A stretch of DNA of 64,000 nt, taken from contig CAJXZL010000002.1 in assembly GCA_913063165.1 (NCBI GenBank), positions 1 to 64,000 of the forward strand. The letters run 5' to 3'. The translations under genes were made by a program, and so were the position numbers. Under the pieces are notes generated by a model. It searched no databases. It was not told the origin of the DNA and saw only the letters and a list, made by a program, of their open reading frames with translations. This DNA is from an uncultured Saccharospirillaceae bacterium. Lineage in GTDB: Bacteria; Pseudomonadota; Gammaproteobacteria; Pseudomonadales; Natronospirillaceae. Within the stretch, counting starts at the first letter, position 1. The number at the start of each line of letters is the position of its first letter. Positions 44,155-54,327 of the stretch are shown here, in pieces.

Positions 44155-44194
44155 TACTTTAAGTATCGACAGCAAGGTGTTGATACTTAAAGTA
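44155..44194. terminator. Bidirectional terminator between benE and the DUF3833 gene
   Basis: A 17-bp inverted repeat with one G-T mismatch: left arm TACTTTAAGTATCGACA, right arm TGTTGATACTTAAAGTA, loop GCAAGG. It lies in the 52-bp gap between convergent genes and so probably stops both transcripts, although T-tracts are short. Confidence 0.75.
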
Positions 44195-44203
44195 ATTATA
44201 TTC

Positions 44204-44767
44204 TTAATCCTGCTTTATAATGACCAATTGAATACTTCCAAGATTGATACCAAATTTAGACAATTTGGATTCATTGATAATGGTGGCTTCATCTACGGCA
44301 TACATCCGATCATCAACGGTAAGATAGATATTTCGGTTTTTATAAGGGATTAGCAGTTGGTATTTCATAAATAAGGCATTGCCTGCTAACGCCATTTTGG
44401 CGGGTTCTTTTACATCACCTGCTACGGCCCAATAATTATTGTCACCGTCTGGTGTCATAACCCATACGCGTTGCTGGCGTTCACCATCATCGAAAATAAA
44501 ATCTTCTGTTAGTGTCCCTACGCCATCACTATCCCATTCACCTGTAATGGTGACATTGAAATAGCGCGTCACCTGACCAGACCGACTCTTAATAATGCCA
44601 TGGGCCGTCAGGTTGCCGTCAAAATAGTGGGTAAGGTCAAACTGGGGCTGATTGTCTGCATAGGTATCAATGGGCACACTGCTGCAGCCGGTTAATAGGG
44701 CAGCAAATCCGACAATAAGCGCTGCAGAACGGAATTTAACGCGATAATGGCGTAATGTTGAATTCAT
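44204..44767 (-). CDS. DUF3833 lipoprotein
   Basis: A 187-residue predicted lipoprotein with signal peptide and lipobox LLTGC (Cys at residue 28). The body contains FDLTHYFDGNLTAHGIIKSR, TEDFIFDDGERQQRVWVM and a YLTVDDRMYAVDE segment typical of DUF3833. It is the last gene of the minus-strand operon and overlaps the DUF2878 gene by four bases. Function unknown. Homologues commonly sit in the same CFA/DUF1365 cluster in marine gammaproteobacteria. Confidence 0.88.
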   Translation of the reverse strand: MNSTLRHYRVKFRSAALIVGFAALLTGCSSVPIDTYADNQPQFDLTHYFDGNLTAHGIIKSRSGQVTRYFNVTITGEWDSDGVGTLTEDFIFDDGERQQRVWVMTPDGDNNYWAVAGDVKEPAKMALAGNALFMKYQLLIPYKNRNIYLTVDDRMYAVDEATIINESKLSKFGINLGSIQLVIIKQD

Positions 44768-45435
44768 GATGACGCTCTCTTTTTGGTCAAGGTTGATCGC
44801 AATAGTTGTAAACGTTGAATCCCTATTGCCTTAAATGATGCTGGACTGTTGCTTAACTCAATTAATTTAGCGAGTTGCATAGACAGCGGCAAAACAGCTG
44901 CCCACAAGAGGCCTTCTCTGAGCAAATAGTGCCATGTTGGGCCCACAATGACCGCATCTGAAAGGCGAGCACCGGTGTAATAGGTCACAGGCACCACCAG
45001 CAAACCCAATGCTGCTGACAGGAAAGGTTTTGTAGCAAGCCAGTAGAATCCGTGCATCAGTGTCATTGAAAAACCAACCCATAAACACGCCAACCAGAGT
45101 GGTATCCGACCAATAAAATGGACAGGAGCCTCACTGGTCCCGGTATTAAATTGGATTATCTGTGTATTAAGGATGAGATTGTCCAGTGATATGCCAATGA
45201 TGGATACCAAGGCTATCAGCAACCACTCCCTTTTCATTGAGACAAAAAACAACTGGTGCAGGACGATCACAATGCCCAACGCGAGCAATGTTTGCGACTC
45301 CGTGGCCACCACACACACCACCCACAAAGCATGAAACAATAGGGCGTTTAGTGCCATACCACCGGGTTTGATGCCCAACATGGTGCGGGCGGACCCACGC
45401 TGAGCTTGCATGGCTTTGTTTTGGGAAATCAACAC
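44764..45435 (-). CDS. DUF2878 inner-membrane protein
   Basis: A 223-residue protein with about six helices and a short basic tail (LRSTLTKKRASS). Segments like ALNALLFHALWVVCVVAT, LHQLFFVSMKREWLLIALVS and IPLWLACLWVGFSMTLMHGF match DUF2878. The GTG start at 45435 has GAGGA seven bases upstream, which decides it over inner ATGs. It lies 13 bp after the CFA synthase gene in the operon. Biochemical role unknown; a link to membrane lipid modification is inferred from neighbours. Confidence 0.85.
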   Translation of the reverse strand: MLISQNKAMQAQRGSARTMLGIKPGGMALNALLFHALWVVCVVATESQTLLALGIVIVLHQLFFVSMKREWLLIALVSIIGISLDNLILNTQIIQFNTGTSEAPVHFIGRIPLWLACLWVGFSMTLMHGFYWLATKPFLSAALGLLVVPVTYYTGARLSDAVIVGPTWHYLLREGLLWAAVLPLSMQLAKLIELSNSPASFKAIGIQRLQLLRSTLTKKRASS

Positions 45436-45448
45436 GGCAAGTTCCTCG

Positions 45449-46705
45449 TTAAGCCATCACATGCAGTGGCTTGGCAAATACAAAGTGGCCCGTGCCAATG
45501 GTTCTTTCACGGAATCCTGCTTCGCAGTAAGACAAATAGAATTCCCACATACGACAAAATTTATCGTCAAAGCCCATTTTCTGAATGGCGTCTACGTGTT
45601 CAAAGAATGCCGCTCTCCAGTGTTCTAGAGTGGTTGCATAATGATGACCAATTTCAGTGAATCCGATAAGCCGCATATCACTCTGGCGTTTAATGCAGTT
45701 CAGCATCACCTGATGAGAGGGTAGGCAACCGCCAGGAAAAATATAGCGTTGGATGAAATCAACAGCATTCTTTGCGGCTTCATAGCGTTGGTCAGGTATG
45801 GTAATCGCCTGAATCAGCATCAATCCGTCGGGCTTTAATAAGTCGTTACACTTTTTGAAGTAGGTGTTGTAATGGCTATGGCCTACGGCTTCGATCATTT
45901 CGACTGACACCAACTTGTCAAATTGACCTTCTAATTCACGGTAGTCGTTTTGTAAGACGGTAACCAAATCACCCAGACCCGCCTTATTCACAGCATCGAC
46001 TGCAAATGCGTGTTGCTCTTTGGATATCGTGGTGGTGGTGACACGACAGCCATAGTGGCTCGCGGCATATATTGCCATACCGCCCCAGCCCGTGCCGATT
46101 TCGACCAAATGATCGGATGCCTTCAATTCCAATTGCTGACAAATAGTCTCCAATTTGTGTAGCGACGCCGCGTGCAGAGTTGAGGCCTCGTCGGTAAATA
46201 TGGCCGACGAGTACATCATGGTGTCGTCTAACATCAGGCTGAAGAATTCATTACTCAGATCATAATGCGCAGCAATGTTGCGTTTAGCACCCGACAAAGA
46301 ATTGGCATACAACAAAGCGTTTACGATCTGGCTAAGACGTTTTCTGATGAATTTGTTTTTATCCCGTTGCTCAATCCAATCTAGGTTTTGTGCAAAAACA
46401 CGAATGACTGACTGTAGGTCTGGTGTCGTCCATGTGCCTTTAATATAGGCTTTTCCAGCGCCAACACCGGTGTCTTGGAGAATATCAGCATAGGCTGAGC
46501 TGTGCTCAATAATAACGCGAACACACAAAGTCGCTTCGTTGGTTGGTTGGCCAAACTCATACACATCTAAACCATCTACCAGGGTAAGATGTCCACGACG
46601 CAAGTACGTCAACGCACGTAACACTGCTTTTTTGGCAATACCGTCAAAAAGGCCTGCTTTGACATCTAGCGGTTGTGTGTGATTTTTTATTGAAGCAAGT
46701 GTCAT
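45449..46705 (-). CDS. cfa: Cyclopropane-fatty-acyl-phospholipid synthase-family methyltransferase
   Basis: A 418-residue SAM-dependent enzyme that adds a methyl or methylene group to unsaturated acyl chains of phospholipids. The SAM-binding motif is LVEIGTGWGGMAIYAA, with HYDLSNEFFSLMLDDTMMYS, VSVEMIEAVGH, FIFPGGCLPS and a C-terminal WEFYLSYCEAGFRER. Length and motifs fit the Cfa family. Genes of this type are in the ChrR-sigma-E regulon of Rhodobacter sphaeroides, where related enzymes contribute to cyclopropane or furan fatty acids. It lies 29 bp after the DUF1365 gene. Which product this enzyme makes is not decided by sequence. Confidence 0.93.
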   Translation of the reverse strand: MTLASIKNHTQPLDVKAGLFDGIAKKAVLRALTYLRRGHLTLVDGLDVYEFGQPTNEATLCVRVIIEHSSAYADILQDTGVGAGKAYIKGTWTTPDLQSVIRVFAQNLDWIEQRDKNKFIRKRLSQIVNALLYANSLSGAKRNIAAHYDLSNEFFSLMLDDTMMYSSAIFTDEASTLHAASLHKLETICQQLELKASDHLVEIGTGWGGMAIYAASHYGCRVTTTTISKEQHAFAVDAVNKAGLGDLVTVLQNDYRELEGQFDKLVSVEMIEAVGHSHYNTYFKKCNDLLKPDGLMLIQAITIPDQRYEAAKNAVDFIQRYIFPGGCLPSHQVMLNCIKRQSDMRLIGFTEIGHHYATTLEHWRAAFFEHVDAIQKMGFDDKFCRMWEFYLSYCEAGFRERTIGTGHFVFAKPLHVMA

Positions 46706-46734: not shown

Positions 46735-47523
46735 TCACTGTTGGTTTGAGCCCTTTTTGGCGATATAAGGAATACCTTTTAGCCAAAGTTTCAGGGCCTG
46801 CCAATAGATATCCGCCATCACCTTTAACGTCATTGCGGGATACCGCACCAATATTCTTGTCATCGCACCTGAGGTGATCGGTTCTCTTTTCAACATCAAG
46901 GTCGCATTAAACTCTGGTTCAGCACGCGCTTCGCCTTTTTTATAGCTATTCAATGCGATACGCGCTGACTGATCTGGTATGTGCGACGACAATTCGTAGC
47001 ATTTTTCAAGGTCATAAAATGGCGATACATGCAGCGTCTTGTCGAACCTGATACGTTGCTCTGACTGAGTTGGATCACAAGCAAGCACATAGGCATGACT
47101 CTCTCCCCAAGGCGTATTGGTTACGTCCAAGACCATTGCCACTAATTGCTCATCGGAATTAAAACAATAGTAGGTGGTGATAGGGTTAAAGATGAAACCC
47201 CAGTATTTTAGATGGGTCATCATTCTGATAGCGCCTTCATCCTGAGCGCCTAGTACGTCCGACACACGCGACCAAACCGCTGCCTTTAATGGTTGGGTGG
47301 AGTCACCAAAGTATTTAGCGCGATCGTAACGGACAGGGTACCAGCGGTGTATTGACCACCACTTATTGAGCTGTAAAACCCTGTCTAATTCGTCTAGATC
47401 GAGGTACATCATAAATAGGTTGGTTTTAAAACCATGTGTCCGGGGTGACGCACGAAAATGGGTTACCTGACCGACATAGAAAGCACTGTGCAGTGATGAT
47501 CCATTGTCTGAAAGTGAACTCAT
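46735..47523 (-). CDS. DUF1365 protein
   Basis: A 262-residue protein beginning after a short leader with SAFYVGQVTHFRASPRTHGF, then MMYLDLDELDRVL, MTHLKYWGFIFNPITTYYCF and TNTPWGESHAYVL, all standard DUF1365 features. It overlaps the FAD oxidoreductase gene by four bases. DUF1365 genes are almost always next to an FAD oxidoreductase and a CFA synthase. In R. sphaeroides, members of this set have been linked to ChrR turnover and to unusual fatty acids. The reaction is unknown. Confidence 0.92.
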   Translation of the reverse strand: MSSLSDNGSSLHSAFYVGQVTHFRASPRTHGFKTNLFMMYLDLDELDRVLQLNKWWSIHRWYPVRYDRAKYFGDSTQPLKAAVWSRVSDVLGAQDEGAIRMMTHLKYWGFIFNPITTYYCFNSDEQLVAMVLDVTNTPWGESHAYVLACDPTQSEQRIRFDKTLHVSPFYDLEKCYELSSHIPDQSARIALNSYKKGEARAEPEFNATLMLKREPITSGAMTRILVRYPAMTLKVMADIYWQALKLWLKGIPYIAKKGSNQQ

Positions 47524-48776
47524 GAGTGGCTGCCTGTTAACAAGTGTTCCGCTACCCGCAAACCACTGACATGGCCGTCCTCATGAAAACCGTTGGCCCA
47601 ATAGGCACCGCAAAACCACGTGTTATTCACACCATTAATCTCATGCCACCTGCGTTGGGCCCGATAGGCTGCGGTAGAGAATTGCGGGTGCGCATATTGG
47701 AACTGTCCGAGAATTAGGTCTGGATTAATCAGGTGGTCTGCATTTAGGGTGACCAAAAAAGTACGATCTGACTGGATTGATTGCAGAATATTCATATTGT
47801 AGGTCAGGATTGGGGGCTGCTGAGTGTCGCCATCAATGTGATAGTTCCAACTCGACCATGCCCGCACAGCCTGTGGGAGAAGTCGGGTGTCTGTGTGCAG
47901 GGTAACCACATTGTTTTGGTAGGGTATCGCGCCCAAAATGGCGGTTTCCTCGTCAGAAGGGTTTTCCAACAACGCCAAAGCCTGATCGCTATGACAGGCA
48001 AAAATAACCTGGTCAAATTGCATCGGGTCTGCGTTTTCAAATGCCAGGGTGACGCCCGTTACATCCCTTGAAACCCGTTTGATGCGGCTGTTAAGGTGAA
48101 TACGGTCAGCATAGCCTGATGATAGGGGTGCCAAATATTGGTTGCTACCGCCCACCAATACACGCCATTGGGGTCTATTGGTAACGGACAGCAGACCATG
48201 ATTTTTGAAAAAAGTGACAAATAACTTAGCGGGGAAATCCGTCATATCAGCCGTGGTAGCCGACCAAATGGCACTGCCCATGGGTAGCAGATAGTGGCTG
48301 ACAAACAAATCAGAAAAGCCGTGTTGCTCTAGGTAGCCGCCTAATGTGAGGGTGTCAGAGAAATCACTTTTTTCAGCATCTCTGAGCGCTTGTTTATTAA
48401 ACCGAACAATGTCTAATAGCATGCGCCAATAGCGTGGTTTGAAAAGATTGCGGCGTTGCGCAAATAGGGTGTTGACACCGGCACCGCCATATTCCAACCC
48501 AGATTGCGCGCACTTAACACTAAAACTCATCTCTGACGGCTGGGTGGCGATATCCAGGTCGGCGAGCATCTTAATAAAATGCGGGTAGGTCCGGTCGTTA
48601 TAGACTATAAATCCAGTGTCAACCGCATAGGTCTGGTCATCGACTGTGACATCGACCGTTGCCGTATGGCCACCTATTCTAGGCGCTGATTCAAATACGT
48701 GCACATCATGGGTCTTATGTAATTGGTAGGCACAGGTCAGACCTGAGATACCGGAACCAATAACGGCTATTTTCAT
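47520..48776 (-). CDS. FAD-dependent oxidoreductase (amine-oxidase-like)
   Basis: A 418-residue flavoprotein with the dinucleotide motif AVIGSGISGLTCAYQL at the N-terminus, ESAPRIGGHTATVDV, and VDTGFIVYNDRTYPHF. The middle region DVTGVTLAFENADPMQF and VIFACHSDQALALL, and the C-terminal WFCGAYWANGFHEDG segment complete the FAD fold. It overlaps both neighbours by four bases (SDR upstream, DUF1365 downstream), so it is tightly coupled. The group is thought to act on acyl chains of lipids together with the CFA-like methyltransferase; this is inferred from gene linkage. Confidence 0.92.
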   Translation of the reverse strand: MKIAVIGSGISGLTCAYQLHKTHDVHVFESAPRIGGHTATVDVTVDDQTYAVDTGFIVYNDRTYPHFIKMLADLDIATQPSEMSFSVKCAQSGLEYGGAGVNTLFAQRRNLFKPRYWRMLLDIVRFNKQALRDAEKSDFSDTLTLGGYLEQHGFSDLFVSHYLLPMGSAIWSATTADMTDFPAKLFVTFFKNHGLLSVTNRPQWRVLVGGSNQYLAPLSSGYADRIHLNSRIKRVSRDVTGVTLAFENADPMQFDQVIFACHSDQALALLENPSDEETAILGAIPYQNNVVTLHTDTRLLPQAVRAWSSWNYHIDGDTQQPPILTYNMNILQSIQSDRTFLVTLNADHLINPDLILGQFQYAHPQFSTAAYRAQRRWHEINGVNNTWFCGAYWANGFHEDGHVSGLRVAEHLLTGSHS

Positions 48777-49549
48777 CGGGTTGCTCCATCGTCAGTTGAT
48801 ACCGTCGTTTTAGGTGTCATGAGGCGCTGCCATAATCCAGGTACGGCGTGAAGCAATCGAATGGACCAATACAGGCGTTTAGGAAAAATAAAACGCTGCT
48901 TGCGGTCCGCAATGGCTTCTGCCATGCGCATGGCAGCTTCGGTAGCCGTGATCTGAAAAGGCATCTCAAAATCATTCTTTTGTGTAAGCGGGGTGTCCAC
49001 AAATCCAGGCAATATCACACTGACATCAATTCCTAGGCCCTTTACATCTAATCTGAGGCTCTCCAATAGGTAGTCAAATGCGGCTTTAGAAGCGCCATAG
49101 GCTTCGGCTCGAGGAAATGGCGCAATACTGGCCAAAGACGCCACACCAACGATATGAGGCGCTTTGGCCGCCTTCAATAACGGCAATGCCATTTCCAAAC
49201 AATTGACGGGGCCATTTAGATTGACGTTAAAAGTTCGGGAAAAAAGCGTCCAGTCCGGCGCCTGAATGTCTAGATATTCACAGGTACCCGCATTGAGAAT
49301 CACCCGATCAATATACGAAAACTGAGCATGCAGGGTCTCTCTGGCGCGCGCAATCTGAATCGGGTCGACAACATCAAAAGCCAATGGAATCATGCCCGAA
49401 TAATCTTGTGCCATTTGATCCAGCAAGGCGGCATTTCTGCCACTAATAACAACCTGATTACCCAACTGGCTTAAATGAATGGCTAGGGCTTGTCCAATAC
49501 CTGAACTCGCGCCGGTTACCCAAATAACTTCATTCTTTATCGATTGCAT
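48773..49549 (-). CDS. Short-chain dehydrogenase/reductase
   Basis: A 258-residue classical SDR. The NAD(P)-binding motif is VTGASSGIGQALAIHL, the NAG-type motif is VILNAGTCEYLD, and the catalytic set includes S (VASLASIAPF) and YGASK (Tyr and Lys). It lies second in the operon, directly after the NTF2-like gene (adjacent stop and start) and overlapping the FAD gene by four bases. The substrate is unknown; a lipid-derived carbonyl is plausible from context. Confidence 0.92.
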   Translation of the reverse strand: MQSIKNEVIWVTGASSGIGQALAIHLSQLGNQVVISGRNAALLDQMAQDYSGMIPLAFDVVDPIQIARARETLHAQFSYIDRVILNAGTCEYLDIQAPDWTLFSRTFNVNLNGPVNCLEMALPLLKAAKAPHIVGVASLASIAPFPRAEAYGASKAAFDYLLESLRLDVKGLGIDVSVILPGFVDTPLTQKNDFEMPFQITATEAAMRMAEAIADRKQRFIFPKRLYWSIRLLHAVPGLWQRLMTPKTTVSTDDGATR

Positions 49550-50008
49550 TTACTTGCCCTTCAAATTGTTTTTAAGCCATGTATTAATGCCCCCAATTAC
49601 AGGGACGTGCTGATACAGCATCTGGCCAAGGTCATAAACGTCTTCGTGAAAATAGATCCTGTCGTTGAATCGAATGTGGCTAATGCCACGGACTGAAATC
49701 ACCTTTCCGCCAAGTTTAGGGTGCACAAAATGCATGTTCCATTTGATATAGGCGCGTTCGGCACCGACCATTTCATCTAAATATTCGAAACGACCGTTTG
49801 TGAGGTTTTGACACAGTGTCTCCATATAGGACCGCAATGTGTCGTTGCCATTGATTTCATGGACAGGATCTACAAATTTCACGTCTTCTGAATAGAGAGC
49901 AGCGATGTCATCGAGCGGCACCTGCTTTAGGTCACGATAGAAATCTTTAAACCGACGCATGAGAACATCAGTATCGTGCTTTGCTTCGTTAACAGTATTT
50001 GTATTCAT
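49550..50008 (-). CDS. NTF2-like/SnoaL-fold protein, first gene of the lipid operon
   Basis: A 152-residue single-domain protein with the NTF2-like cone fold: RFKDFYRDLKQVPLDDIAAL, YSEDVKFVDPVHEINGNDTL, RAYIKWNMHFVHPKLGGKVI and RFNDRIYFHEDVYDLGQML. ATG 50008 is preferred; ATG 50074 has only pyrimidines in front of it. It heads the seven-gene minus-strand operon and follows the predicted sigma-E-type promoter by about 90 nt. In related clusters a SnoaL-like gene often sits beside the ECF sigma gene. Its ligand is unknown. Confidence 0.85.
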   Translation of the reverse strand: MNTNTVNEAKHDTDVLMRRFKDFYRDLKQVPLDDIAALYSEDVKFVDPVHEINGNDTLRSYMETLCQNLTNGRFEYLDEMVGAERAYIKWNMHFVHPKLGGKVISVRGISHIRFNDRIYFHEDVYDLGQMLYQHVPVIGGINTWLKNNLKGK

Positions 50009-50108
50009 ACCTATATATTCCATCCAGTTATTTGAATCGGTTATGTTGTAAAACCGGTGCGCGCGTCTCTGCATGTAAAGGAAGCAAAATTCTTGCGCTT
50101 TCTGTTGG

Positions 50109-50134
50109 TACGCAGGTCTTTATAGATTAGATCA
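50109..50134 (-). promoter_or_regulatory. Predicted ECF-sigma promoter of the lipid operon
   Basis: On the minus strand, TGATCT (50134-50129) is followed by exactly 18 bases and TA (50110-50109). This is one base away from the TGATCC-N18-TA form I recall for R. sphaeroides sigma-E. The predicted start is about 90 nt before the NTF2-like gene. It is the mirror partner of the site at 50209-50234. Confidence 0.6.
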
Positions 50135-50208
50135 TTTTTGAAAATCCGTCGTTGTGGTAGTCAAATGGCGGTATGACTAGGTACAATAAAATCCGCATTC
50201 AATTGCAG

Positions 50209-50234
50209 TGATCCAAGCCCTAAACGCTGTCGTA
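50209..50234 (+). promoter_or_regulatory. Predicted autoregulatory ECF-sigma promoter
   Basis: TGATCC (50209-50214), exactly 18 bases, then TA (50233-50234) within TATAAG. It matches the recalled R. sphaeroides sigma-E consensus exactly and stands just before the sigma factor gene, as expected for autoregulation. A transcript starting near 50241 would begin after the in-frame TTG at 50239, so translation should start at ATG 50266. Confidence 0.7.
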
Positions 50235-50265: not shown

Positions 50266-50892
50266 ATGGGCAAATTGGCATTTTTTGAACAATACCGTGA
50301 ACCGTTAGCAGGGCGAAGCGTGAAAAGCGACCCATTAGATCAACAGTTAATTGATATCTCCGCCGTAGCGATTCATCGCGACACGGCTGCGTTTGAACGT
50401 TTGTTTCGCGCCTTTGTACCAATGATACGCGCCTTTAATTTGAAGGCCTATCCTGGTGCGTCGTTAATGGCTGACGAAGTAGCACAAGAAGTGATGATTA
50501 AGGTGTGGGAAAAAGCCCATACCTATCGTCCCGAAATGGCTGCCTTGACTACTTGGTTGTTTACGCTGTCAAGAAACGCCCGTGTCGATTATTTGCGTCG
50601 CAACGGTAAGCATGTCTCGTTGATTGATCCGGAGCCCATATGGGATCAATTGGAAGATGACAGTGCTGACCAGTTTCAAAAGGCGCGGCAACGTGAGTTT
50701 GAAAAGCAGGTTGCCGAAGGGTTGGCAAAGTTACCCAACGATCAGAGACAGGTGCTATCGCAGGTGTACTTGGAAGGATTGACCCATCAAGAGGTGTCTG
50801 AAAAATTTAATATCCCATTGGGTACGGTTAAGTCGCGAGTACGCCTTGCACTGAAGAGCCTATCCATTGTCGCAAAAGGATCGTCTATATGA
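50266..50892 (+). CDS. rpoE: ECF RNA polymerase sigma factor (RpoE/ChrR-type, ECF11-like)
   Basis: A 208-residue group IV sigma factor. Region 2 (about residues 45-115) has FERLFRAFVPMIRAFNLKAY, ADEVAQEVMIKVWEKAHTYR and LTTWLFTLSRNARVDYLRR. Region 4 (about 145-200) has LPNDQRQVLSQVYLEGLTHQ and FNIPLGTVKSRVRLALKSL. The next gene encodes a ChrR anti-sigma factor overlapping by four bases, which places it in the singlet-oxygen/ECF11 group rather than the E. coli envelope-stress RpoE group. The upstream site TGATCC-N18-TA supports autoregulation. The symbol follows Rhodobacter usage. Confidence 0.93.
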   Translation: MGKLAFFEQYREPLAGRSVKSDPLDQQLIDISAVAIHRDTAAFERLFRAFVPMIRAFNLKAYPGASLMADEVAQEVMIKVWEKAHTYRPEMAALTTWLFTLSRNARVDYLRRNGKHVSLIDPEPIWDQLEDDSADQFQKARQREFEKQVAEGLAKLPNDQRQVLSQVYLEGLTHQEVSEKFNIPLGTVKSRVRLALKSLSIVAKGSSI

Positions 50893-51602
50893 TTCACAGT
50901 CATCCCACATTAGAGCAACTTACTGAGTTTGCATCGGGTACCTTACCTTTAAGCGTCAGCTTGGGTTTGTCCGGACATTTGGAATATTGTCCAGATTGCA
51001 CGGCTCAGGTTCATAAGTTGCAATCTGTTGGTGCATCTATAATGGAGCAGGTTACGGTGCCGCAGAGCAGTGACGACGATATGAGTCGACTCTTGGCTGG
51101 TATTGCGAATCGCATTGACCGCTCAGATGAATCAAGTGCTGGCAACGCCACTGTAGAAGTGGCTGCTGTGACAGACATCAATATCAATAGCAGCACCAGT
51201 GGGTACCGTTTACCTAAGGTGTTAAGACAGTTTGTAGAAACAGATTACAATGAGTTGAATTGGGTGAGATTGTCTCCGGCTTTTAAGATCGCAACCTTAC
51301 TCAAAGACACCGATGGCACCCAGGTTGCATTGAGTCGTGTAAAAGCAGGCGGTGCTATGCCGCATCACAAGCATTCAGGTGATGAAATGACATTGGTGCT
51401 CGAAGGGAGTTTTTCTGATGAGTCTGGCGTATTTACACCTGGCGACTTTATCATGCGAGATAGCCGACACAAACACCATCCCATTGTTACTATGGACGGT
51501 GAATGTATCTGCCTGATGGTATTAGATGGTCCAGTTCAGTTTACTGGCACTTTTACCCGCTGGCTCAACCCTTTGATGAGATGGCAACATTCTGGCATCT
51601 GA
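50889..51602 (+). CDS. chrR: ChrR-type zinc anti-sigma factor with cupin domain
   Basis: A 237-residue anti-sigma factor. The N-terminal zinc anti-sigma (ASD) domain shows the H-x3-C-x2-C motif HLEYCPDC. The C-terminal cupin domain (about 110-235) has GAMPHHKHSGDEMTLVLEGS, GVFTPGDFIMRDSRHKHHP and a CIC pair (DGECICLMV). These are the metal and redox features of R. sphaeroides ChrR, which releases its sigma factor on singlet oxygen or organic hydroperoxide stress. It overlaps the sigma gene by ATGA. The paired genes and conserved residues make the function highly likely. Confidence 0.95.
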   Translation: MIHSHPTLEQLTEFASGTLPLSVSLGLSGHLEYCPDCTAQVHKLQSVGASIMEQVTVPQSSDDDMSRLLAGIANRIDRSDESSAGNATVEVAAVTDININSSTSGYRLPKVLRQFVETDYNELNWVRLSPAFKIATLLKDTDGTQVALSRVKAGGAMPHHKHSGDEMTLVLEGSFSDESGVFTPGDFIMRDSRHKHHPIVTMDGECICLMVLDGPVQFTGTFTRWLNPLMRWQHSGI

Positions 51603-51609
51603 TCTCCAC

Positions 51610-51634
51610 AACGACCAATGTCCTATTGGTCGTT
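51610..51634. terminator. Hairpin shared by chrR and the PhyH-like gene
   Basis: A perfect 10-bp inverted repeat, AACGACCAAT/ATTGGTCGTT, with loop GTCCT lies between the convergent genes and contains the stop of the minus-strand one. T-tracts are weak on both sides, but the position suggests a bidirectional terminator. Confidence 0.7.
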
Positions 51635-52489
51635 AAATCCTCTTAACGGCAACTCCCGCGTTTGTATCCAATTCTGCTCAGAGTACGCTGCGGCATTATC
51701 GGTGACGTGTAAGGTATACGCCTGTCTGGACCGGCTAGAGCGATTGGGTGCGCTGTAGTGTGGCAGTAAGCCATCAAAACAGATAAGCGTACCGGCTTTA
51801 ACGGGCATTGGTTCGCCACCGACGTCTGTTGGCCATGGCATCCTGTCCAAAGACTCCATGTCAGTCGCATCGCCAGTCCGTTTAAATACTTCCCTTAATG
51901 GACCCTGATGACCCTTGGGTTCAACCCATAGGCATCCGTTTTCAAGTGTTGCATCTTCAATAGCAAACCAATAGGTCACTACCGACTGTGGTGTTGTGAA
52001 AAAGAAGGTCGCATCCTGGTGCCAATGAATCTCCCCACCTATTCGGGGTTGTTTAAAAATATACATCGATTGCCGTATTACCGGTTCTGCCATGCCTAAT
52101 TGGTGCGCAATGACACCTAACCTTGCGTCATGGCTCATGGCTTCAAATACTGGATCCAATTCATGCAATGCATGGCCTATTTTATTGATACATTGCTCAG
52201 GCTCCTGAACAAATTTTCCCTCACTATCCAAAGCGCCTTCTTCGAAGAAGCAACGGATATTCTCTGCTGAATCCAAAAAGAAGTGGTTGTTAGTGCGGTC
52301 ATTATTCTCGGTAGTAAAAACCGCACTTTGGTCCTGAGCAAGTTTCATTGCTTGATCAGAAACCACCCATTTTTCAACCACATGTTCAGCCCGCATTTTA
52401 AGTGCTTCACATTGCTCTGTACTGAGAAATTGCGGTATTACCACAAAACCATCTTGTTGGTACCGGCTGATATCGTCCGCTGTCATCAT
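51623..52489 (-). CDS. Phytanoyl-CoA dioxygenase (PhyH) family protein
   Basis: A 288-residue Fe(II)/2-oxoglutarate-dependent oxygenase-like protein. The Fe-binding H-x-D is in EIHWHQDATFFF, and the distal His and 2-oxoglutarate-binding Arg are in LPHYSAPNRSSRSRQAYTLH. The start DDISRYQQDGFVVIPQFLS is typical PhyH. ATG 52489 has AGGAG seven bases upstream; an upstream TTG at 52561 lacks family sequence. It lies 68 bp after the RetSat/CrtI-like gene and may share its transcript. The hydroxylated substrate is unknown; lipids and small alcohols are typical of the family. Confidence 0.88.
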   Translation of the reverse strand: MMTADDISRYQQDGFVVIPQFLSTEQCEALKMRAEHVVEKWVVSDQAMKLAQDQSAVFTTENNDRTNNHFFLDSAENIRCFFEEGALDSEGKFVQEPEQCINKIGHALHELDPVFEAMSHDARLGVIAHQLGMAEPVIRQSMYIFKQPRIGGEIHWHQDATFFFTTPQSVVTYWFAIEDATLENGCLWVEPKGHQGPLREVFKRTGDATDMESLDRMPWPTDVGGEPMPVKAGTLICFDGLLPHYSAPNRSSRSRQAYTLHVTDNAAAYSEQNWIQTRELPLRGFNDQ

Positions 52490-52557
52490 CGAGAGGCTCC
52501 TGTTATTCAAAAACTGTTGGCCATTACATAAGGCAAAATACGGCGTGGCCGCATCAA

Positions 52558-54327
52558 TCAATCCTTATTGGTAGCCGAAATTGCGCGCCATAGTTTAAGG
52601 CCCTTATACAGACCCACGACTGATATTGACGTTAACACGCCAGACATTGCAGCGCCTACAACGCCACAGGTGAGGGTGTCTTGCCCAGTTAAATATAAAC
52701 CCTTCACCCTGGTCTTGGGTTTTAGCCATGATTGCTTAAATCGTTGTGGATTGTGTTGTAACCCATAAATCTCACCGCTTTGGTAAAAATTAAAGTGCTG
52801 GGTCGATAGGGGCGTCGACAATTCCCAGTAGGCGAGTTTACCTTCCAATTGCGGCAATTTTTGATACAACACCTTTAATAGTCGCTCGGCAAACTGTTGT
52901 TTGAATGCTTCATAGGCGTCTCCCCGGTGGGTCCAGGTCGTGTCAGACCATTGATCAAACCAACTGTGGACAGCAGGGGCTACAATCTCAATGGTCGCCT
53001 TGTTGGGATAGCGTTCGTCCCATGTGGGATCCTTGGCGGAAGGAAACGACACATATATCAGCGGTATGTCGGCGTTCATATCATTCATGAATGCATCGGC
53101 AGCTCGGTCATGATTGTCTTCCAAATAGATCCAAAAGTTGGTTTTGGGCAATCCTAAAGACTCAGATGATTGGTCAAAACCCAAATACATCCCCAAGTGA
53201 GACATTGATCGACTGACCTGACTGAGGGTTTGGGTATAACCGTGTTGTGCACAGATAGCTTCTGGAAGGAGCTTTTGAAACGTATTAAAGACACCCGCGC
53301 TGCTAATGACGACAGGGGCGGTGATGGCGTGTCCATCGGACATAAGCACACCGGTTACCTGATTGTTGGTGACTGATATCTCTTTAACTTCAGCATAGGT
53401 AAATACCTCGCCACCAGTGGCCTGTATGGCTGGAATTTGGGTACGTGCGATCATGCTAGCGCCACCGACTGGATAAAAACCGCCGTGTAAATAATGGCGG
53501 GCAATAATGGCGTGGATTAGAAAGCTGCTGTCTCTTGGGGTAACGCCGGCATCCCCCCATTGTGTGGTCAACACAGCAATAAGGCGTTGGTTGTGGGTGA
53601 GGCGCTCTAGTACCGTTCGTGTCGGTTCAAACATCATCTCGGGTAATCGCTTGCGAAACCATTTTGATACGCCTTCTGGGAGCAATTTACTTACTCCAAA
53701 GCCTGACATGCCAGTAGAAACCTGTCGCAACAAGTCAAAATACTGATCCAATGCAGCGGCTTCATCAGGGAAGTCCTTGAGCAAAGCTGTTTTTAACGCG
53801 TGTTCACCCTCAGGAAATTCAAACTGATAATCACCGATAAATACGGTGTCGTACGGTGATCCCATTGATTCCCATTCAAGCTTGTGATCAGACAAATAAT
53901 CGTAGAGCTGGCGGGCGCGCGTCGTTGGCAACCCCATATCACCAATATAATGGACACCGACATCCCACTCATATCCTTGGCGGCCATACGAGTGGGTGAA
54001 GCCACCAGCAGTATAGTGCTGTTCTAACACAGCCACTTTCCATCCCATTTTGGATAGGCAAACAGCAGTCGCAAGGCCACCAGGTCCAGACCCAATGACA
54101 ATGGCATCGTATGTCTCCTGCACGCGTGTGGGCCGGTATCGCTTACCAACACGCAATGCAGCAGGTGAGGGCGATGACCCCAGGGTGGCTTGCGATGCTG
54201 CTTTTATTGAATCTGAAAAGGTATCTGTCACGACGTGCTCCCAACCGTTATTTGTAGTCACTGGTGGACTCAATGCCACAAACCTATGTGTTTTTTTGAC
54301 AGTAACAGCGAGATCGCGTTTAGACAA
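52558..54327 (-). CDS. RetSat/CrtI-like FAD-dependent oxidoreductase
   Basis: A 589-residue flavoprotein. After an unusual leader of about 65 residues comes the FAD motif AIVIGSGPGGLATAVCLSKM, then LEQHYTAGGFTHSYGRQGYE and VGVHYIGDM. The central region has HAIIARHYLHGGFYPVGGAS, and the C-terminus YLTGQDTLTCGVVGAAMSGV followed by a membrane-like helix. This matches retinol-saturase and phytoene-desaturase relatives, which add or remove double bonds in isoprenoid or polyunsaturated chains. The leader starts at a TTG and may be too long by homology; no better start was found. No carotenoid genes are nearby, so the substrate is unknown. Confidence 0.87.
   Translation of the reverse strand: MSKRDLAVTVKKTHRFVALSPPVTTNNGWEHVVTDTFSDSIKAASQATLGSSPSPAALRVGKRYRPTRVQETYDAIVIGSGPGGLATAVCLSKMGWKVAVLEQHYTAGGFTHSYGRQGYEWDVGVHYIGDMGLPTTRARQLYDYLSDHKLEWESMGSPYDTVFIGDYQFEFPEGEHALKTALLKDFPDEAAALDQYFDLLRQVSTGMSGFGVSKLLPEGVSKWFRKRLPEMMFEPTRTVLERLTHNQRLIAVLTTQWGDAGVTPRDSSFLIHAIIARHYLHGGFYPVGGASMIARTQIPAIQATGGEVFTYAEVKEISVTNNQVTGVLMSDGHAITAPVVISSAGVFNTFQKLLPEAICAQHGYTQTLSQVSRSMSHLGMYLGFDQSSESLGLPKTNFWIYLEDNHDRAADAFMNDMNADIPLIYVSFPSAKDPTWDERYPNKATIEIVAPAVHSWFDQWSDTTWTHRGDAYEAFKQQFAERLLKVLYQKLPQLEGKLAYWELSTPLSTQHFNFYQSGEIYGLQHNPQRFKQSWLKPKTRVKGLYLTGQDTLTCGVVGAAMSGVLTSISVVGLYKGLKLWRAISATNKD

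Follow-up and report, generated by a model that had tools for sequence, protein, structure and literature searches.

Paired ECF11-type promoter sites at a divergent rpoE-chrR and lipid operon locus, and a third, putative site inside its ufaO-like gene

The window, a 64,000-nucleotide stretch of contig CAJXZL010000002.1 from an uncultured Saccharospirillaceae bacterium, carries an ECF sigma factor gene and a chrR gene that are divergent from a seven-gene lipid operon. The locus contains the following features:

44155–44194, strand not assigned: terminator-like hairpin of 17 pairs directly after gene 7, scored on the + strand
44204–44767, −: operon gene 7, DUF3833 (family match; searched as 44204–44764)
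44764–45435, −: operon gene 6, DUF2878 membrane protein (family match)
45449–46705, −: operon gene 5, CFA/CMAS-family methyltransferase, probable UfaM (CMAS match)
46735–47523, −: operon gene 4, DUF1365, probable UfaO, a furan-forming oxygenase (PF07103, E 9.3e-72; role by analogy with RSP1090)
47052–47077, −: putative intragenic ECF11-type site in the DUF1365/ufaO-like gene (TGATCC-N16-CGTA, 10/10)
47520–48776, −: operon gene 3, FAD amine-oxidase-like, probable UfaD, a fatty acyl desaturase (Amino_oxidase; role by analogy with RSP1091)
48773–49549, −: operon gene 2, short-chain dehydrogenase/reductase (ORF and family match)
49550–50008, −: operon gene 1, SnoaL-like (SnoaL_2; searched as 49550–50011)
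50109–50134, −: ECF11-type promoter site of the lipid operon (TGATCT-N16-CGTA, 9/10 against the published consensus)
50209–50234, +: ECF11-type promoter site of rpoE-chrR (TGATCC-N16-CGTA, 10/10 against the published consensus)
50266–50892, +: ECF sigma factor, rpoE/ECF11-like, 208 aa (Sigma70_r2 and r4; RpoE 2q1z, E 2.1e-34)
50889–51602, +: ChrR anti-sigma factor (TIGR02451 above cut-off; 2z2s, E 4.7e-24; Cupin_7)

The sigma factor and ChrR assignments made in an earlier note on this DNA are borne out by the family matches. The closest solved relative of the sigma factor is Rhodobacter RpoE (2q1z), with 122 bits against 47 bits for the runner-up chain. ATG 50266 is preferred as its start over TTG 50239, because the latter would coincide with the predicted transcription start site. 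The chrR gene overlaps the sigma gene by 4 bp. Its product scores 172.3 bits against TIGR02451 (cut-off 124.5) and falls below the cut-off of the narrower NF051881 (116.5 against 300). The zinc and cupin ligands were matched by eye to the Rhodobacter ligands (PMC6852236) through the 2z2s alignment, and the zinc-binding N-terminal ligands and the cupin H, H, E and H are all found. Residues H5, H30, C34, C37, H160, H162, E166 and H196 are invariant in an 11-sequence alignment. The ChrR cupin family has a single match in the window's genome. Adjoining chrR and convergent to it are ORFs at 51623–54327 (−) of the window, which from their translations, by eye, we take to be dioxygenase-like and CrtI-like FAD proteins.

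Families of the UfaM, UfaD and UfaO types (CFA-like methyltransferase, FAD amine oxidase and DUF1365) occur together in the lipid operon. In Rhodobacter sphaeroides, ufaD, ufaO and ufaM make furan fatty acids (PMC7380195). By family and neighbourhood, the three window genes would be the counterparts of these genes; RSP1090 is taken to be a DUF1365 protein from its size and neighbours. The window's CFA-family protein falls short of the canonical Cfa equivalog (270 bits, cut-off 400), and the genome's other full-length CFA copy (contig C45) exceeds it with 527 bits. The window copy is therefore more likely to be UfaM than canonical Cfa. By the same analogy, the product of the seven-gene operon is probably furan fatty acids. 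The DUF3833 protein presumably resembles the RSP1088 lipoprotein. The start of the SnoaL-like gene is uncertain (ATG 50008, 50023 or 50074). The hairpin at 44155–44194 probably ends the operon, which would require its use on the − strand; terminator-like sites number 10 against 7.2 (sd 2.8) in shuffles, an excess that is not clear.

Two sites with the same spacing point away from each other between the sigma gene and the operon. The positions given for them in the earlier note are exact: TGATCT-N18-TA at 50134..50109 (−) and TGATCC-N18-TA at 50209..50234 (+). The sites are separated by 74 bp, and the operon-head site has T instead of C at position 6. CG precedes TA in both. Their proposed identity as promoters is supported, since both agree with the ECF11 promoter sequences published for Pseudomonas syringae and Shewanella. 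The motif on which the proposal relied held up only in a longer form. TGATCY-N18-TA exceeds its chance expectation in the window by little (7 matches against 2.99 expected; at least 7 in 4 of 100 shuffles) and was discarded as the defining motif. The CG-extended TGATCY-N16-CGTA has 3 matches against 0.10 expected, a count reached in 0 of 100 shuffles. A loose-motif match at 51600–51625 (+) was discarded because the CG is missing. A sigma-70-like site at 50158–50187 (+) was also discarded, as it scores no better than shuffles.

The third match to TGATCY-N16-CGTA lies at 47052–47077 (−), within the DUF1365 gene of the operon. It is in the operon sense, approximately 346 bp upstream of the start codon of the CFA-family gene. 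The wiring earlier proposed for these 7 kb is probably correct in its two promoters and incomplete in that this third, intragenic site precedes ufaM/cfa.

Similar sites are present in DUF1365 genes of relatives. Set 1 consists of 83 distinct DUF1365 genes from ChrR-selected named loci and ufaD-selected relatives, the window's gene included. A perfect sense-strand site is present in 19 of the 83, against 2.45 expected from a synonymous-codon shuffle (maximum 7 in 200). The excess of 9/10 matches is smaller (24 against 11.5 expected, maximum 22). Set 2 consists of 78 DUF1365 genes taken from other genomes in the order, which are the best 80 by E-value of G057–G207 less two that are near-identical to set 1. 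It contains 16 perfect sites against 2.13 expected (maximum 7 in 150 shuffles) and 12 sites of 9/10 against 7.69 expected (maximum 13). In the pooled sets, window included, 35 of 161 genes have a perfect site at a spacing of 16, against 4.6 expected from the synonymous-codon shuffle, and none has one at any of the 17 alternative spacings. When the letters of the motif were permuted to give 1,500 motifs, the true one included, the runner-up reaches 7 in the 161 genes. The shuffle counts overstate independence because DUF1365 genes are related by descent; when the genes are clustered at 75% identity, 27 of 117 clusters carry a perfect internal site. After the synonymous-codon shuffle test, the reading of the internal site as a chance match was dropped.

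Other genes of the locus rarely contain such a site. Perfect sense sites are found in 1 of 73 SnoaL, 0 of 55 SDR, 0 of 74 FAD (ufaD), 0 of 82 CFA, 0 of 21 DUF2878 and 0 of 7 DUF3833 genes, and in 1 of 79 sigma genes and 0 of 82 chrR genes. No perfect antisense site occurs in any of the operon, sigma or chrR gene sets.

The internal sites fall at two positions. Position A corresponds to the peptide CDPxxxxxR, as at the window's site, and position B to the peptide I[RQ]xPxxTV. In set 1, 12 perfect sites are at position A, 6 at position B and 1 elsewhere (L152). In set 2, 12 are at position A and 4 at position B. Overall, 34 of the 35 perfect sites are at one of these positions, and A and B never occur in the same gene. 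The same holds for sites of at least 9/10 in the 161 genes, with 32 at A (18 in set 1, 14 in set 2), 26 at B (19 and 7) and none with both. This pattern is what a change of place, or two separate origins, of the putative internal promoter would leave. Position A is approximately 300–400 nt upstream of ufaM and position B roughly 65–176 nt upstream, measured to an approximate ufaM start.

The internal site is not general among relatives. No internal site of at least 9/10 is found in 40 of 83 genes of set 1 and 51 of 78 of set 2, so that about half or more of these DUF1365 genes lack it. In a class-wide set of 38 DUF1365 genes from as many other families, 0.06 perfect sites are expected and 1 is present, at position A; for 9/10 sites the numbers are 1.07 and two. 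Because only 1 of these 38 genes has a perfect site, we limit the claim of an internal site to the order and its near relatives. Its presence is weakly associated with ChrR. In set 2, an A or B site is present in 21 genes, 19 of which are from genomes where ChrR scores over the cut-off; among the 57 genes without such a site the number is 37 (p 0.045). The two exceptions with a site have fragmentary ChrR matches. In a few DUF1365 genes, TGAACC-N16-CGTA occurs late in the gene, either 34 nt before its end (L225, L244, L253, L258 and L271) or at column 330 (L168, L175 and L176). They may mark one more internal position, at which the −35 box is a variant.

In the codon test, genes were picked by peptide alone and the expectation was taken from each gene's own codon usage. 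At position A in set 1, the codons that form the site are TGT in 17 of 18 genes (11.5 expected), GAT in 15 of 18 (11.2) and CGT in 15 of 18 (4.5). In set 2, they are found in 13 of 13, 13 of 13 and 12 of 13 (8.0, 9.2 and 4.6 expected). At position B in set 1, ATC is used in 19 of 19 genes (9.7 expected), ACC in 18 of 18 (8.3) and GTA in 19 of 19 (5.9). In set 2, each is used in 5 of 6 (1.9, 2.4 and 1.6 expected).

Codon choice also bears on the possibility that the intergenic sites are real ECF11 promoters while the DUF1365 match reflects a conserved protein and codon bias, with no promoter. This possibility agrees with the many relatives that have no internal site and with several features of position B. 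The match there partly follows the conserved peptide I[RQ][FY]PxMTV, which is found in most genes. The Leu codon supplies the TG of the −35 box in 5 of 18 genes of set 1, below the 9.8 predicted from codon usage. Many position B genes have TCATCC or TAATCC, chiefly in the window's family; the G of the −35 box is almost invariant among intergenic promoters. However, the synonymous shuffle that gives 4.6 genes instead of 35 preserves both the protein and its codon usage. At position A, both boxes are retained while the peptide between them varies widely. GTA is used in 19 of 19 set 1 genes that have the −35 residues but in 1 of 8 in which V is kept and these residues are missing (1.1 expected), although the small set 2 control, with V and without I[RQ], gives 2 of 3 (0.8 expected). 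Protein conservation and codon bias are therefore an unlikely source of the internal match. The ufaO gene probably carries overlapping messages, one for the enzyme and one for a sigma-E promoter that would dictate codons and even amino acids and give UfaM its own start.

An internal promoter might instead produce a shortened UfaO protein, or a small RNA that derives from the 3' part of the ufaO gene. The distance of position A from ufaM is consistent with this, and sigma-E-dependent small RNAs such as Pos19 exist in Rhodobacter. In the window, a ufaM message from the internal site would have a long leader. Position B, by contrast, lies at a distance from ufaM that fits a ufaM promoter, and we regard the truncated protein or small RNA as improbable. 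Where relatives keep the intragenic site, we read it as a probable sigma-E promoter that drives ufaM. It would not be surprising for ufaM to have a start of its own, since the Rhodobacter ufaM lies outside the ufaD-ufaO operon.

Conservation of the intergenic pair was assessed in named ChrR loci, using the best 80 of 205 confirmed loci. The sigma gene was located by tblastn in 78, and in 63 of these a lipid-operon gene is divergent from it inside the scanned distance. A sigma-side site of at least 9/10 is present in 55 of the 63 divergent loci and an operon-side site in 61. Both are present in 54, and both are perfect in 35. Among the nine exceptions, four have the missing site at an altered spacer: 17 in L095 and L110, 15 in L101, and 17 on the operon side in L051. 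These perfect boxes at a spacer of 15 or 17 are possible variant promoters. The sigma-side site is absent from L071, L079, L080 and L086, and L123 has neither site. Because both sites are conserved in 54 of 63 loci, a single sigma factor likely autoregulates and controls the divergent lipid operon, in agreement with the earlier proposal. The other 15 loci have no divergent lipid gene inside that distance, and two of them are cut by a contig edge; 12 of the 15 have a sigma-side site of at least 9/10 and 3 have a site in the operon-side orientation.

The extended motif is concentrated between the divergent genes. In 62 of the 63 loci, TGATCY-N16-CGTA has 107 matches within 22.3 kb of intergenic DNA. 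The 1,040 kb of surrounding sequence has 18, some of which are internal ufaO sites. This is an approximately 280-fold higher intergenic density. Spacers of 10–15 and 17–23 have 0–3 intergenic matches each. Among 194 genomes of the order, a divergent site pair with a gap of 10–100 bp occurs in 33, with CRTA permitted on one side and not all pairs checked as lying at rpoE; none of the 194 has the control pattern, which is the motif written backward. In 12 relatives (L056–L058, L061–L064, L067–L069, L073 and L074), the −35 boxes are only 0–6 bp apart, and two polymerases could hardly bind simultaneously. Helical phasing of the −35 to −35 gaps, judged by eye in the 63 divergent loci, shows nothing convincing.

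Members of the window's own family differ from the window in this arrangement. The ChrR locus was retrieved for 14 of the 21 members searched (G001–G021). All 14 carry the sigma-side site, and none has the operon-side site or the divergent layout. Thirteen of the 14 have ufaD at a distant genomic location, and G001 has it on the same strand at a distance of a few kb. Some of these distant ufaD operons are preceded by their own ECF11-type site (e.g., L164, L167 and L171). The ufaD and ChrR of the window are closer to those of other families than to those of its own. The whole window locus may therefore have been acquired, possibly by horizontal gain, or retained from an older state.

The paired TGATCC elements could in principle form an inverted-repeat operator for a dimeric regulator rather than two promoters. 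The half-sites are inverted, and 12 of the 63 divergent loci have them as close as described above. An operator of this kind is rejected as very improbable because the spacing inside each site is constant at 16 bp, whereas the two sites can be anywhere between 0 and 200 bp apart. Single sites also precede other genes, and the 14 family relatives keep the sigma-side site only. That the sites are chance matches to a short motif, as the weak excess of TGATCY-N18-TA in the window might suggest, is next to inconceivable given the counts for the full motif, the 33 genomes with a divergent pair and the intergenic density.

Candidate target genes extend beyond the locus. TGATCY-N16-CGTA has 13 matches in the genome against 4 for a reversed-pattern control. 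Two are the intergenic sites reported here and one is inside ufaO. Four of the 13 lie within approximately 100 bp upstream of a gene in the correct direction. One has downstream of it a DUF523/DUF1722 (YbgA-like) gene and then a photolyase gene, photolyase being a gene at which the earlier note had suggested looking for the motif. Others precede a lipocalin gene, a pair of RND genes for a membrane-fusion protein and a pump, and an ORF for which Pfam gives no match (1322–1347 of L142, contig C98, approximately 55 bp before its likely start). The MFS gene divergent from this ORF is presumably ArsJ-like. One match extends over the beginning of a gene that we take to be NAD kinase-like. The remaining five are inside genes or antisense (L009, L010, L013, L017 and L019), and the presence of the motif is thus not sufficient for a promoter. 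The ECF11 core target types present in the genome are photolyase, with a site, and cfa-like, FAD oxidoreductase and SDR genes in the divergent operon. The switch had been described as self-contained in 7 kb; the sites elsewhere speak against this.

Parts of this arrangement resemble known systems. In Stenotrophomonas maltophilia, rpoEc-chrR-chrA is found with a divergent lipid-modification cluster, smlt2375-smlt2367, and predicted sigma boxes precede both the rpoEc and smlt2375 sides (PMC11832516). The cluster is strongly induced in a chrR mutant, and this is reverted in a chrR rpoE double mutant; the system has a role in superoxide tolerance and not in singlet oxygen tolerance (PMC11832516). 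The sigma-chrR pair, the divergent lipid cluster and the boxes on both sides are as in the window. Unlike the window operon, the cluster has nine genes, including a desaturase, two CFA genes, a lipocalin and several hypothetical genes. The lipocalin site elsewhere in the window's genome echoes this lipocalin. No mention of an intragenic promoter was found for this cluster in the available portions of PMC11832516.

In Rhodobacter sphaeroides, the sigma and anti-sigma families and the ufaD, ufaO and ufaM family counterparts are shared with the window, and sigma-E targets feed back on ChrR turnover (PMC6852236, PMC7380195). Unlike in the window, ufaM (RSP2144) is apart from the ufaD-ufaO operon (RSP1091-1087), and the portions available do not describe the ufaD-ufaO operon or ufaM as adjoining rpoE-chrR. 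A plasmid table lists a 'potential promoter of RSP1089' that was retained in a ufaO deletion (PMC6852236, PMC7380195). This is a hint of an internal promoter near ufaO in Rhodobacter.

In Pseudomonas syringae, PSPTO_1043 (ECF11) has the consensus TGATCC-N16-CGTA, with binding (PMC5507510). Its regulon resembles that of the window in this consensus, in a photolyase and cfa cluster target and in a bound AcrA/AcrB-type pair; the photolyase and RND sites of the window's genome echo these bound loci. The lipid genes, unlike those of the window, are in a phrB-led locus distant from the sigma gene. In Shewanella oneidensis, RpoE2-ChrR has TGATCC...CGTA promoters and autoregulation (PMC4336711). It also resembles the window in a target numbered next to rpoE2 (SO_1987) and in a ybgA-phrB-cfa operon. 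The adjoining target is a Lon-domain protein, however, and the lipid genes are elsewhere.

The locus is very probably a sigma-E/ChrR (ECF11) oxidative-stress circuit with three promoters in the window and further targets elsewhere. ChrR would bind and restrain the sigma factor until singlet oxygen, peroxide or a similar stress releases it to TGATCC-N16-CGTA promoters. The released sigma factor would transcribe its own operon from 50209–50234 (+) and the divergent seven-gene lipid operon from 50109–50134 (−). From 47052–47077 (−), it would produce a shorter message with the UfaM methyltransferase gene and the next two genes, without ufaD and ufaO. This internal start would be expected to raise UfaM relative to UfaD and UfaO. 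The same sigma factor would act on the photolyase operon, the lipocalin gene and the efflux operon elsewhere in the genome. We infer from sequence that RNA polymerase starts at these sites, and likewise the inducing signal and the lipid product.

Back-to-back promoters for a sigma gene and a lipid operon are already published for S. maltophilia (PMC11832516). With the window and its relatives, this established circuit now reaches numerous gammaproteobacteria, most of them marine, in which the lipid operon is the closest partner of the sigma-E/ChrR circuit. The intragenic sigma-E promoter in ufaO is, as far as searches show, undescribed in the open-licence literature searched. It resembles a promoter that is maintained by codon choice within an enzyme gene. 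If this is true, UfaM gains its own sigma-E start inside the operon, compared with the Rhodobacter ufaM, which is outside the operon altogether. The internal site yields a prediction about how cells would balance the methylating step against the furan-forming step. In Rhodobacter, the genes for furan fatty acids in turn influence ChrR turnover.
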